64,000 nucleotides of DNA from Mycolicibacterium goodii (GTDB lineage: Bacteria; Actinomycetota; Actinomycetes; Mycobacteriales; Mycobacteriaceae). The stretch is taken from positions 1,612,001 to 1,676,000 of the forward strand of contig NZ_CP012150.1 in NCBI RefSeq assembly GCF_001187505.1, read 5' to 3'. Below are positions 36,461 to 39,999 of the stretch, in pieces. A model generated the notes under the pieces. It made no database searches, was not told the origin of the DNA, and saw only the letters and a list, made by a program, of their open reading frames with translations. Position numbers and translations under genes: made by a program. Position 1 is the stretch's first letter. Every line of letters starts with the position of its first letter.

Positions 36461-36491
36461 ATCGCTTTCTTCGCGAGCAGTAGCTCCTATG

Positions 36492-37553
36492 TCAAGCCGC
36501 TGCTGATTGTGGCGGCTGACTGGGGGTTTGGTGTGCGGTGTCGTGGCGTAGGGCGTGGTAGACGCGGCGGGCGATGCGGCGTTTGACGCAGCGTAGGGCG
36601 GCGGCTTTGGTTTTCCCGGCTTCTCGGAGGCGTTGGTAGTACTGGTGTCCGGGGCTGTTGGGCATACGGATCTGGGTCAACGCGATGCGGTGAAAAGCCG
36701 CGTTGAGTTGACGGTTACCAGCCCGGCTGAGGCGCATTTGTCCGGCGCTGGCTCCCGACCATGCCGGGATCGGGGCCACCCCGCAGTGAGCGGCGAACGC
36801 CGGTTCGCTGCGAAACCGGTCGATCCCGGCGGCTTCGGCGACGATCTTGGCCGCGGTTAACTCCGCGCACCCTTCAATCGCCAGCAGCGCCAGGGCGATC
36901 TGCTGGACCCGGGCGCTCAGGCGTTTGGCCAGGGCGTTGATCTCGGTGGTTAGCCGGATGATGTCGACCAGCTCGGCTCGAGCGATTTCGGCGAGCACCC
37001 CGGTCGGCTCGGCCAGCCAGGCCTGCAGGGCCTGCTGATGCTTGAGGGTGTCAAGCGCACCTACCGTGGCAGCCTGCTCGGGATCGAGGTCGTGGATATG
37101 CCAGCGCAGCCGGTTGATCGCCGCGGTGCGTTGGGCGACAAGCACATCGCGGCGATCGGTGAGCAGCTTGAGCTCCAGGGAGGTCTGGTCATGGCTGGCG
37201 ACGGGCAGGTCCGGTTCGCGCAGCACCGCCCGGGCCACCGCCAGCGCATCGATCGGATCGGACTTGCCGCGGCTACGTGCGGACTTGCGCACCGCGGCCA
37301 TCAGTTTGGTGGGTACCCGCACCACCTGCTGGCCTGCGCTGAGCAGATCACGTTCCAGGCGGGCGGACATGTTGCGGCAGTCCTCGATGCCCCAGACCAG
37401 CTCGCCGCCGAACTCCTCGCGTGCCCACGCAATCGCGGCGCGGTGCCCGGCGGTGGTCGCCCGCACGGTCTTGCTGCCCAGTTTGCGTCCGACCTCGTCG
37501 ACAGCGACAAAGGTGTGGCTGGACTTGTGCACATCGGCTCCAACAACAACCAT
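36492..37553 (-). CDS. IS110-family transposase (RNA-guided DEDD recombinase)
   Basis: 353 residues. An N-terminal RuvC-like DEDD domain has Asp7 (VVGADVHKSSH), Glu57 (VWGIEDCRN), Asp99 and Asp102 (KSDPIDALAVAR). A coiled-coil middle follows, then the C-terminal Transposase_20-type domain (IEGCAELTAAKIVAEAAGID, AHCGVAPIPAWSGASAGQMR) carrying the Ser nucleophile in WSGAS, and a basic tail (CVKRRIARRVYHALRHD). ATG 37553 is chosen because AAGGAGG lies 8 bases upstream; the in-frame GTG 37571 would overlap that site. The stop codon is embedded in a TTGACA hexamer at the element's right end. Confidence 0.95.
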   Translation of the reverse strand: MVVVGADVHKSSHTFVAVDEVGRKLGSKTVRATTAGHRAAIAWAREEFGGELVWGIEDCRNMSARLERDLLSAGQQVVRVPTKLMAAVRKSARSRGKSDPIDALAVARAVLREPDLPVASHDQTSLELKLLTDRRDVLVAQRTAAINRLRWHIHDLDPEQAATVGALDTLKHQQALQAWLAEPTGVLAEIARAELVDIIRLTTEINALAKRLSARVQQIALALLAIEGCAELTAAKIVAEAAGIDRFRSEPAFAAHCGVAPIPAWSGASAGQMRLSRAGNRQLNAAFHRIALTQIRMPNSPGHQYYQRLREAGKTKAAALRCVKRRIARRVYHALRHDTAHQTPSQPPQSAAA

Positions 37554-37599
37554 GGTGGTTGCCTCCTTCACCAGTGAACAGAGGTGTGTTGAGGTCGGG

Positions 37600-37770
37600 C
37601 CGGCCGGCGGACACTTCTCAGTCGGGGCGATGCCACGCTCCTATCAAGTCACGCCGGTCGGTCCTTCACACCTGGTGCCGGCACTACTGCTCAGCGCCAA
37701 CCCCCCCCGGGGCGGCAGACGCAAAACGAGCCAGACACCAGATGATCCAGACCCAACCACCGCAACGCGG
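37600..37770 (-). ncRNA. Predicted bridge RNA of the IS110 element
   Basis: Read on the minus strand, the left end has two stem-internal-loop structures. Target loop 37740-37673: base stem TGGTG/CACCA, inner stem CGCC/GGCG, left guide GTTTTGCGTCTGC (37727-37715) and right guide GAGCAG (37692-37687). They match the host target GTTTTACGT-CT-GCTC on either side of the core. Donor loop 37661-37600: base stem CCGACCGGCG/CGCCGGCCGG (9 of 10 pairs), inner hairpin GGC-ATC-GCC, left guide ATAGGAGC (37644-37637) matching the element's right end, and right guide ACTGAG (37622-37617) complementary to CT-CAGT at its left end. The RNA ends are approximate. The order target loop, donor loop, transposase is that of known IS110 bridge RNAs. 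Confidence 0.82.
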
Positions 37771-37891
37771 CAAAATCCAGACTGACACTGAGACGTAAAA
37801 CTGCGCTTTTTCATGCGAAATTGGGCAGTTTTATGTCTGTTCGGCAAGTTATCCACAGGGCAGATGCGGTGGTCGTGGCGGTTTCGCCGCG

Positions 37892-38779
37892 ATGCCGCAA
37901 ACAATCGACGCCATGGCAGTCGAGGGTCCCTTCCGTGATGGCGTAGCGACCACGCAACAATTGCTCGCGACCATGAGCTATCGAGGGCTCGCCAGGCGGG
38001 TTCGCGACGGCGAACTGTTCCGCGTGTGCCATGGCGTGTACTCGATGGAACCGCCCGATACCGCGTGCCGGCTGCGCGCGCTCGATCTGCTGTCGAGCAC
38101 ACCGATCGTCGCGTGCATGAACACCGCCGCGCAGGTCTACGGCTTCGACACCGACCCCGACTTCCGACTCCACATCCTGGACCCGGGTGTACGTGTGCGG
38201 CCGTCACCGGATCTGGTGGTGCATCAGCGGATCGGTGCACCGCTGAAGAAGGTCGACGGCCGGTTGTTGACGGCGCCGGCGTGGACGGCGATCGAATTGG
38301 CGCGCACCCTCCGGCGTCCACGAGCACTGGCGACCCTGGACGCCGCCCTGCGGAGCGCGACCTGCACGAAAGCCGAACTCGAGAGCACGCTGGCCGAACA
38401 TCGCGGCAGACGCGGGGTCGTCAAGGTCCGTGAACTGCTGCCGCTCGCCGACGCGCGGGCCGAGTCGCCGATGGAGTCCGAGATGCGGCTGGTGTTCATT
38501 GATTGGGCCCTGCCCGTCCCGGAGTTGCAGTACGAGATGTGCGATCTGCACGGTCAGCTGTGGCGGGTGGATTTCGCCTGGCCGGAGTATCGGGTGGCCG
38601 CGGAGTACGACAGCGTTGATTGGCACGCCAACACCGCTGCGTTCAAGCACGACCGGATGAAGGTCGCACGCCTGCAGGAAATGGGATGGGTCAGCGTGCC
38701 CGCCGTCAGCGACGACATTCGGAAGTTTCCGGCCGAACTGTGCGCGCGGATCCGTCGGGAGCTCCTTCGCGCCGCCTGA
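37892..38779 (+). CDS. DUF559-type endonuclease-fold protein with AbiEi-like N-terminus
   Basis: 295 residues. The N-terminal ~90 resemble the winged-helix of mycobacterial AbiEi/type IV antitoxin-like proteins (GVATTQQLLATMSYRGLARRVRDG, then ELFRVCHGVYSM). The C-terminal ~100 match the DUF559/Vsr-like nuclease fold: QLWRVDFAWPEYRVAAEYDSVDWHAN, then HDRMKVARLQEMGWVSV. Acidic residues of a possible active site (Asp in VDFAW, Glu and Asp in AEYDS) are present. The start may be ATG 37892 or ATG 37913. Such genes are numerous in fast-growing mycobacteria; the function is not established. It lies between two copies of the same hairpin repeat. Confidence 0.75.
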   Translation: MPQTIDAMAVEGPFRDGVATTQQLLATMSYRGLARRVRDGELFRVCHGVYSMEPPDTACRLRALDLLSSTPIVACMNTAAQVYGFDTDPDFRLHILDPGVRVRPSPDLVVHQRIGAPLKKVDGRLLTAPAWTAIELARTLRRPRALATLDAALRSATCTKAELESTLAEHRGRRGVVKVRELLPLADARAESPMESEMRLVFIDWALPVPELQYEMCDLHGQLWRVDFAWPEYRVAAEYDSVDWHANTAAFKHDRMKVARLQEMGWVSVPAVSDDIRKFPAELCARIRRELLRAA

Positions 38780-38788
38780 TTCCCTTGC

Positions 38789-38846
38789 CGAGCAGACGCA
38801 AAACTGCCTGTTTTCGCGGTAAAAACGGCAGTTTTGCGTCTGCTCG
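38789..38846. repeat. Chromosomal hairpin repeat, copy 2 (perfect 20-bp arms)
   Basis: CGAGCAGACGCAAAACTGCC (38789-38808) and its exact complement (38827-38846) flank an 18-base loop. It lies between convergent genes (DUF559 protein and alcohol dehydrogenase), so probably works as a bidirectional terminator. The right arm reads GCAGTTTTGCGTCTGCTCG, a perfect unoccupied match to the bridge-RNA guides of the nearby IS110 element. Confidence 0.88.
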
Positions 38847-38847
38847 C

Positions 38848-38883
38848 GGGAGATGGTTACCAGTCGGGAGATGGTTACCAGTC
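38848..38883. repeat. 18-bp tandem duplication over the adh stop codon
   Basis: GGGAGATGGTTACCAGTC occurs twice head to tail (38848-38865 and 38866-38883). The second unit includes the last two codons (Asp-Trp) and the stop codon of the alcohol dehydrogenase; the first repeats them just beyond the stop. Confidence 0.85.
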
Positions 38884-39999
38884 GGACTCGTCGTACTTGA
38901 TGACGCCGCGGATGTTGTTGCCGTCCAACATGTCCTGGTACCCGGAGTTGATGTCCTCGAGCCTGTAGGTCCGGGTGATCATGTCGTCGATGTTGAGCAG
39001 GCCGGACTTGTACAGCGCCGCCAGTCGCGGGGTCTCGACGTGGCTGCTGCCGCCGCCGAAGATGTTGCCCTTCAACGTCTTCTGCAACATCGTGAACAGA
39101 AAGAGGTTGAGCTTGACGTCGACGTCGGTCATCGCGCCCATACCCGTCACGACGCATGTGCCGGTCTTGGCGGTCAGGATCAACGCCTCTTCGATGTACT
39201 CGCCCTTCATCTCGCCGACGGCGATGATGACCTTGTCCGCCATCAGACCGCGGGTGACGTCGATGACGGGGGCGATGGCCTCGGCCATCGTGGGGTAGAC
39301 GTGGGTGGCGCCGAACTTGGTGGCCTGCTCACGCTTCCACTCGTTCGGGTCGATCGCGATGACCTGTTTGGCGCCCGAGATCACCGCACCCTGAAGTGCG
39401 CTCATGCCGATGCCGCCGACGCCGACGATGATCACGGTCTCACCGGGTTGGACCTGTGCGACATTGGTGGCCGAACCGAACCCGGTGGGCACCGCGCAAC
39501 CCATGATGGCCGCGGTCTCGAACGGGATGTCCTTGTCGATCTTGACGACCGAGTCCTTGTGCACCGTCATGTACGGCGCGAAGGTGCCGAGCAGGTTCAT
39601 CGGCGACACCTCGTGACTGCCGGCGTGGATGCGGCTGGTGCCGTCGGCAATCGCCTTGCCGCCCAGGAGAACCGCGCCGCGGTCACACAGTGAGCGGAAG
39701 CCCTTGAGACACGGCGGGCACTCGCCGCAGGCCGGGATGAACGCCAGGATGACATGGTCGCCCTCCTGCAGCCCGGTGACGTTGCTGCCGACCTTGGTGA
39801 TCACGCCTGCGCCCTCGTGGCCACCGAGGGCGGGCAGGCCGATCGGCGTCGCGCCCGTGGTGATGTGGTAGTCGGAATGGCACATGCCGGCGGCGTGCAG
39901 CCGGATCTGCACCTCATCGGCGACGGGGTCGCCCAGATCGATCTCGTCGACCTTGAACGGCGAATTCAGTTCCCAGAGCAGAGCGCCTTTGGTCTTCAT
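38875..39999 (-). CDS. NDMA-type zinc-dependent alcohol dehydrogenase
   Basis: 374 residues of the MDR superfamily, in the actinobacterial Zn alcohol dehydrogenase group that often needs a tightly bound NAD(H) (NDMA-dependent in vitro). Catalytic Zn ligands are in AAGMCHSDYHITTG and GGHEGAGV; the structural Zn site is PACGECPPCLKGFRSLC; the coenzyme loop is IVGVGGIGMSALQGA followed by AIDPNEWKRE. It ends at a tandem-duplicated stop region. A KstR-type operator 13 bp before the ATG suggests a role in sterol or steroid side-chain metabolism. Confidence 0.92.
   Translation of the reverse strand: MKTKGALLWELNSPFKVDEIDLGDPVADEVQIRLHAAGMCHSDYHITTGATPIGLPALGGHEGAGVITKVGSNVTGLQEGDHVILAFIPACGECPPCLKGFRSLCDRGAVLLGGKAIADGTSRIHAGSHEVSPMNLLGTFAPYMTVHKDSVVKIDKDIPFETAAIMGCAVPTGFGSATNVAQVQPGETVIIVGVGGIGMSALQGAVISGAKQVIAIDPNEWKREQATKFGATHVYPTMAEAIAPVIDVTRGLMADKVIIAVGEMKGEYIEEALILTAKTGTCVVTGMGAMTDVDVKLNLFLFTMLQKTLKGNIFGGGSSHVETPRLAALYKSGLLNIDDMITRTYRLEDINSGYQDMLDGNNIRGVIKYDESDW

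Follow-up and report, generated by a model that had tools for sequence, protein, structure and literature searches.

The IS110 element and its predicted bridge RNA

An insertion sequence of the IS110 group was located on the minus strand of the window, i.e., the whole analyzed stretch of 64,000 nt from Mycolicibacterium goodii. The element, its gene and the host DNA at its two ends comprised the following features:

36481..37790, minus strand: IS110-group element, one of four full copies in the genome, which also holds one left-end fragment
36492..37553, minus strand: recombinase gene, 353 aa from its ATG, with relatives in Pfam, NCBIfam and PDB
37791..37792, minus strand: left core CT, from comparison of the own copies
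36479..36480, minus strand: right core CT, from the same comparison
37793..37801, minus strand: left target half GTTTTACGT, host DNA, read from the flanks of the own copies
36473..36478, minus strand: right target half GCTCGC, host DNA, read in the same way
36481..36490, minus strand: left donor half ATAGGAGCTA, the right end of the element, from the donor match; GACATAGGAG is common to relatives

The recombinase, for which an alternative start (GTG at 37571) would add 6 aa, possessed the N-terminal RuvC-like DEDD domain and the C-terminal Transposase_20 domain of the IS110 group (Pfam DEDD_Tnp_IS110, 94.9 bits, and Transposase_20, 75.9 bits, both above the cut-off). It scored 205.5 bits against the NCBIfam model NF033542 (IS110 family RNA-guided transposase; cut-off 140), and two PDB relatives in all were found by sequence, IS621 (8wt6) and ISCro4 (9t56). 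There were 237 non-coding nt left of the ATG and 11 nt right of the stop codon, which is the long-left, short-right arrangement; the long, RNA-encoding right end of the IS1111 group was absent from this element with its 11-nt right end.

The genome (7,105,933 bases, one contig) contained four full copies; a fifth copy was a left-end fragment, 684 bases long and 99% identical. The left flank read CAGTTTTRCGT-CT in all five, the right flank read CT-GCTCG in the four copies that have one, and the short shared core CT stood at both ends of each full copy. Insertion of other copies at unrelated targets, which the preliminary description had named as counter-evidence, was therefore not what was found: all five own copies share one guide-matching motif, which reads CAGTTTTRCGT-CT-GCTCG in the copies with both flanks. 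The fragment (L005, G000:C1:5984650-5985333) had a left flank matching the guide and no right end. A sixth listed match in the genome was a 56-nt stretch at 83%.

Within the left end, the following parts of a bridge RNA were predicted:

37590..37775, minus strand: predicted bridge RNA, ends approximate, from the left-end alignment and consensus fold
37759..37771, minus strand: possible 5′ stem-loop GCCGC-GTT-GCGGT, read from the sequence and conserved in the alignment
37730..37744, minus strand: closing stem of the target loop, 5′ side (helix 1, 99.3% of cells paired)
37715..37727, minus strand: left target guide GTTTTGCGTCTGC, from the flank match (0.70 bits, the least conserved of the stretches compared)
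37696..37716, minus strand: inner hairpin of the target loop (helix 2, 98.4% of cells paired)
37687..37692, minus strand: right target guide GAGCAG, from the flank match (1.01 bits)
37669..37682, minus strand: closing stem of the target loop, 3′ side, from the consensus-fold helix test
37648..37655, minus strand: closing stem of the donor loop, 5′ side (helix 3, nearly invariant, with little covariation)
37637..37644, minus strand: left donor guide ATAGGAGC, an 8-nt match to 36490-36483 (1.98 bits)
37617..37622, minus strand: right donor guide ACTGAG, the reverse complement of CTCAGT at 37792-37787 (1.84 bits)
37606..37614, minus strand: closing stem of the donor loop, 3′ side, from the consensus-fold helix test

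Of the 11 positions of left target and core, the left target guide matched 10 in the window copy, the one difference being a G opposite T, i.e., a wobble, and all 11 in the left flanks of the other four own copies. The right target guide GAGCAG was the exact reverse complement of CTGCTC (core plus right target). On the donor side, the left guide had its 8-nt match with the donor end ATAGGAGCTA, and ACTGAG had a 6-nt match as the reverse complement of CTCAGT (core plus CAGT). The predicted target site for the window recombinase with its RNA would then be GTTTTGCGTCTGCTC. The preliminary description had placed both pairs of guides in a target and a donor loop on the minus strand, had rebuilt the host target from the two flanks with CT-GCTCGC on its right side, and had reported one tolerated G:T difference, an exact right complement and donor matches of eight and six bases. 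All of this was recovered, with the reservation that the core is missing from the left donor guide, whose match ends before it (the guide continues GTGG after ATAGGAGC, the donor TACT). When the 231-nt left end was shuffled 20,000 times with dinucleotides preserved and one mismatch allowed in the left target guide, the target pair was found in one shuffle, the donor pair in none and both together in none.

Conservation, expressed as bits per column over 29 left-end sequences, was high in the left end outside the target guides, so that two variable target guides (0.70 and 1.01 bits) were embedded in a conserved scaffold together with near-invariant donor guides (1.98 and 1.84 bits). This is in line with published IS110 RNAs, in which, according to the available part of PMC11208160, the first loop shows low and the second higher conservation. 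Since the donor guides hardly vary, the evidence on the donor side is the matching itself.

The predicted RNA has two internal loops of conserved structure, as in the IS110 group. The stem and hairpin of the target loop and the stem and hairpin of the donor loop formed standard pairs in 98.9% of cells over the 29 relatives, in agreement with the closing stems and inner hairpins described before; sliding one helix side by 1 to 3 columns lowered this to 36–47%. Changes on both sides occurred in 5 of 32 pairs, a number reached by none of 500 shuffles, which ignore relatedness and concern helices that the same alignment had supplied through its consensus fold; the lack of loop covariation that had been put forward as a ground for doubt was thus not found. 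The donor loop is supported by conservation and not by covariation, because it hardly varies. Folded singly, the window sequence was not significant (z −1.40; 16 of 200 shuffles as good). RNAalifold added a helix that would enclose the target loop, and it paired the 3′ half of the 5′ stem-loop at 37759..37771 with columns 198-201, which is why that helix is listed as possible. Rfam gave no family at the gathering score over the window, and over the left end, at E up to 10, two weak matches far below the cut-offs. The run of G within the target loop's inner hairpin (37701-37708) had 8, 7, 7, 6, and 6 G in the own copies L001-L005; its length was the sole left-end difference noticed in the alignment among L001, L002, and L004 (L005 was not aligned).

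Guides and flanks of related elements

When the genus was searched with the recombinase, 76 of 148 genomes had a match at E 1e-3 and 82 of 396 did at E 1e-100. Of 130 loci examined, 103 had a recognizable left flank or target loop and 27 had neither. The covariation test covered 93 of the 103 (L053, L086, L087, L103, and L104 included); L059, L083, L105, L133, L136, L137, L153, L154, L160, and L182 were dropped for a missing or masked flank, an unrecognized loop anchor or a duplicated left end. The right guide was unrecognized in L170 and L171. A few of the 93 copies represented one insertion present in two genomes (L138/L150 and L077/L141), and classes were counted once. In L083 and L136, the complete left end was preceded in tandem by a second, partial one; the two partial ends stopped within the target loop, each at a different point, and one of them contained an N.

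A quick recombinase tree comprised three groups: clade A, to which the window element belongs and whose sites are terminator-like palindromes; a mixed group, with 11 of 21 sites called convergent; and the large clade B.

Guides varied together with flanks. In the 93 copies, which fell into 42 left-guide classes, the left guide matched its own flanks at 8.02 of 9 positions and other flanks at 5.06 (best 9-base match, taken from a small set of registers applied equally to real and permuted pairs). None of 200,000 permutations reached the observed mean, the largest being 6.02. The own guide was best or tied in 35 of the 42 classes, and another guide scored higher in seven. For 30 right-guide classes the values were 5.29 of 6 for own flanks and 4.07 for others (0 of 100,000 permutations). 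Permutation within clades, for the 40 of 42 classes with an assigned clade (two had no right flank for assignment), gave 16 of 100,000 in clade A (8 classes), none in clade B (23) and one in clade C (9); the permutations assume independent guide classes, an assumption that does not fully hold, and the within-clade tests lessen the effect of relatedness and do not remove it. When 47 copies were compared at fixed register (wobbles counted), the agreement was weak (mean at most 5.91 of 10), as elements differ from one another in register by one or two bases.

As in the IS110 group, the target-loop guides correspond to pairing with the bottom strand of the left and the top strand of the right target half, and they covary with them. 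The check proposed in the preliminary description, covariation of guide changes with flanks, thus came out positively on both sides, and together with the motif shared by the own copies it supports the view that the predicted RNA is the guide of its own element.

Similar elements were also plasmid-borne (49 records: Rhodococcus 20, Mycobacterium 17, Streptomyces 7, and Mycolicibacterium 5), the two records covering most of the query being from Mycobacterium. Phage records gave no match, and a single-protein scan of the genome contigs gave 72 pattern matches with no relative among them.

Target sites of clades A and B

The motif CAGTTTTRCGTCTGCTC occurred 80 times in the genome at no more than one mismatch, and its reversed control did not occur. 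Sixty-six occurrences formed 33 inward-facing pairs 39 nt apart and 14 were single, which made 47 places in total. The paired form is a palindrome of ~56 bp, GAGCAGACGCAAAACTG-N22-CAGTTTTGCGTCTGCTC, and the target of the element is one of its arms. In the window, it was present in split and in intact form:

37791..37842, minus strand: larger piece of the split palindrome, from the inverted repeat and reconstructed sites
36475..36480, minus strand: smaller piece of the split palindrome, CTGCTC, from own copies and reconstructed sites
38790..38845, no strand: intact, unoccupied palindrome with two facing target sites, between convergent genes ~1 kb from the element

Insertion cut off just the last few bases of one arm, and most of the stem remained beside the left end. 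The intact palindrome was flanked by a gene at 37892-38779 (plus strand) and an NDMA-dependent alcohol dehydrogenase gene at 38875-39999 (minus strand). Positions 38782-38853, folded as RNA, gave z values of −7.6 and −8.5, one per strand.

Gene context was determined for 41 of the 47 places by simple GC3-based gene calling; the occupied L002 and L003 and four others were left out, and L123 had no palindrome pattern. Among the 40 distinct palindromes, 31 were situated between convergent genes, five between tandem genes, two were called divergent and two were in called genes; one of the divergent calls (L023) was an occupied site, and the miscall came from the gene of the element itself. For 28 of the 31 convergent cases, both stop codons were 3-31 nt away, most often about 11. 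No T-run followed the stem in the flanks inspected. Mycobacterial terminators may lack a T-run. Thus, of the marks of a bidirectional terminator, the position after convergent stop codons was found and a stem with T-run was not. We regard the palindrome as probably a bidirectional transcription terminator because 31 of 40 lie between convergent genes, and since no T-run follows the stem, this function is deduced from position and hairpin.

Of 148 genomes of the genus, 41 contained the palindrome arm (at most one mismatch), with 1 to 76 matches per genome; the genome of the window had 76, and four others (G077, G119, G128, and G138) had 44-62. The best recombinase matches of these four had E 5e-34 or worse or were unlisted, and the palindrome therefore seems independent of the element. 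A 14-base string of the palindrome was not found in the literature searched; the TRIT terminator family of RNIE (Gardner, 2011) is mentioned in an excerpt of PMC3526491, and an excerpt of PMC5217627 concerns another, different mycobacterial palindrome.

Other members of clade A were mostly inserted in palindromes of the same outer form and a different inner sequence, and their guides differed accordingly. In G314, for instance, the guide was ATTTCGCGTCTGC; four of five left flanks ended CTTTC(A/G)CGTCT, and the fifth CTCTCACGTCT. By crude gene calling, the 16 occupied clade A sites with both flanks were convergent in nine cases, tandem in five, divergent in one and within a gene in one. The same arrangement was present in L183, a relative from another family of the order, whose recombinase is 76% identical. 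Eleven of the 12 other clade A copies shown had a left core CT and a right core TT (L039, L040, L067, L068, L127-L129, and L143-L146), and L041 had the right core TG. The TT right cores suggest that donor and target may have different cores in clade A.

Elements of clade B were inserted directly before start codons. The 62 distinct right flanks comprised 41 ATG, 20 GTG and one exception (L134, for which the label B came only from the right end and which the tree places close to clade A), and the downstream frame was open for at least 60 codons in 58 of the 62. Among the 54 sites whose left flank was usable, 52 had a TANNNT ending 5 to 7 nt ahead of the start codon (34 at 5, 16 at 6 and two at 7, with the core counted once), compared with 1.35% of random positions in the same loci and one of 36 non-B sites. 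The same pattern was present in all 25 distinct left guides of clade B. Example loci were L043, L046-L052, L054-L056, L069-L082, L084, L085, and L147-L161. A reading of the TA as part of a stop codon was rejected, as the third base was C or T in 12 of 52 and the sixth was T in 52 of 54.

The right guides of clade B carried the complement of the start codon: CAC faced GTG in eight of nine copies, and CAT faced ATG in 33 of 45 and, by wobble, GTG in the remaining 12. Right guides ending in GGG faced CC before the start codon at 15 of 20 distinct sites, and those ending in GCG faced GC at 15 of 29. Judged by these correspondences, the clade B guides address a −10 box and a start codon from the same scaffold as in clade A. 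The M. tuberculosis −10 motif is TANNNT, with its center 7-12 bp upstream of the transcription start, and leaderless genes account for 26% of those with a primary start site (PMC3898074, available in part); the clade B sites therefore have the layout of leaderless promoters. AGGAG, contributed by the right end of the element, stood six bases ahead of the start codon in 61 of 62 right flanks (ATAGGAG-NAAC-NN-RTG). We infer that the host promoter drives the clade B element and that the gene is translated from the Shine-Dalgarno sequence supplied.

Interpretation and relation to known systems

Anatomy, guide-target match, the shared site of the five copies and guide-flank covariation are all observed. 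From them, we put a probability of roughly 0.93 on the reading that this IS110 insertion sequence would be guided by a bridge RNA from its left end to a palindrome arm, most likely that of a bidirectional terminator. The left end would encode an RNA with two loops; the donor loop would pair with the element's own joined ends; the DEDD/serine recombinase would join the excised circle to the target site at the CT core; and the use of one arm of a dispersed palindrome would provide tens of landing sites outside genes. Expression of the RNA, its pairing in the cell, the circle intermediate and the recombination itself are all presumed in this scheme.

Two other accounts of the guide-target match were considered. 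One is that the recombinase protein reads the target and the resemblance between left end and flank is incidental. It draws support from the tree, on which target class agrees with recombinase clade (the 5 labels change 5 times, where 4 is the minimum), but within clade B, with its one target class, guides fit their own flanks at 7.73 against 5.61 of 9 (0 of 100,000 permutations), and single bases follow the guides, as described above for right guides ending in GGG or GCG and for those with CAC or CAT; we consider it very improbable. The other is that the guide was copied from the target after insertion, the match being a consequence and not a cause. The close guide/flank match in most elements would agree with this; however, the four copies in G134 share the guide TTAGGCTGTG at the differing flanks TACGCTGCGG, TTAGGCTGCA, TTAGGCTCGC, and ATAGGCTCAT, and the four copies in G136 and the four in G102 likewise have one guide and differing flanks. 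Rewriting of guides after insertion was rejected, since copies of the same genome keep one guide at differing flanks, and copying is scarcely credible.

The nature of the target permits another explanation, in which the palindrome is not a terminator but a protein-binding site, or a repeat of the mobile or REP-like kind, and an abundant repeat is used as by IS621. The absence of a T-run, the patchy copy number among the genomes of the genus, and the targeting of REP sequences by IS110 elements, well documented in the available part of PMC1525189, favor it. Against it stand the predominance of convergent positions, the short distances to both stop codons, and the paucity of divergent calls, one of the two being the miscall at L023. 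We regard this explanation as unlikely and retain guidance to a probable terminator arm.

A broader proposal, to which we give even odds, is that the target loop diverged on a conserved scaffold into addresses of transcription landmarks: terminator arms in clade A, and in clade B the −10 box (left guide) and the start codon (right guide) of leaderless genes. Clade B would insert between promoter and gene, capture the host promoter for its RNA and recombinase and return an AGGAG Shine-Dalgarno sequence; clade A would be shielded behind a hairpin. If true, the guides would encode a gene-expression strategy and not just a harmless address, and natural guides would appear to read conserved, abundant, predictable regulatory landmarks (terminator-like arms, or a −10 box with a start codon). 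Within this single genus, related guides number in the dozens and each has sites of its own, which offers a natural test of bridge-RNA targeting beyond enterobacterial models; the matched guide-target sets with their tolerated mismatches would be useful for working out pairing rules, and clade B yields a directly testable claim, promoter capture at leaderless genes.

RNA-guided insertion with two loops, guide covariation and REP targets is already published, for IS621 and related systems (PMC11208160, PMC11187229, and PMC1525189, each available in part), and NF033542 already names the family RNA-guided. The proposed novel part is therefore the landmark-reading of the guides. As far as the available parts of PMC11208160 and PMC11208158 describe it, IS621 of E. 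coli (PDB 8wt6) shares with the window element the DEDD and Transposase_20 recombinase, the long left and short right end, an RNA with target and donor loops (predicted here), the CT core, guides split into left and right, and a target in a palindromic repeat. It differs in that the recombinases are weakly similar (phmmer E 2.8e-08), the palindrome of the window element is another one and lies mostly between convergent genes, and the core is absent from the left donor guide of the window element.

The seekRNA of IS1111/IS110 elements, in the excerpts of PMC11187229, is likewise a target-choosing RNA from a non-coding region beside the recombinase gene, and natural re-direction between relatives is reported there; the longer non-coding region of IS1111 elements is not upstream of the gene, whereas that of the window element is. 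ISPa11, ISPpu9, ISPpu10, and ISRm19 have in common with it that the copies of each are all found in a dispersed palindrome (PMC1525189, in part); they belong to other hosts, and the likeness is drawn without comparison of palindrome sequences. These REP-targeting elements were described in 2006, before the guide RNAs were reported in the 2024 papers.

In the literature searched, neither terminator palindromes nor a −10 box with start codon was found as a target class for IS110, and among titles on IS110 and leaderless genes none concerned mycobacterial targets. In the available main text of PMC11208160, words starting with Mycobac or terminator were absent, as was the term start codon, and the words Mycobacterium and IS900 were absent from PMC11187229.

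The mycobacterial IS110 element IS900 of M. avium subsp. paratuberculosis has CATG in its target motif, as do many clade B sites, and its motif CATGN6TCTCCTT includes the reverse complement of a Shine-Dalgarno-like stretch beside the CATG (PMC8141618, in part). In comparison, clade B sites consist of a −10 box and a start codon, and the window element uses neither feature. The title of Doran (1997), listed among the references of PMC8141618, states that IS900 targets translation initiation signals.
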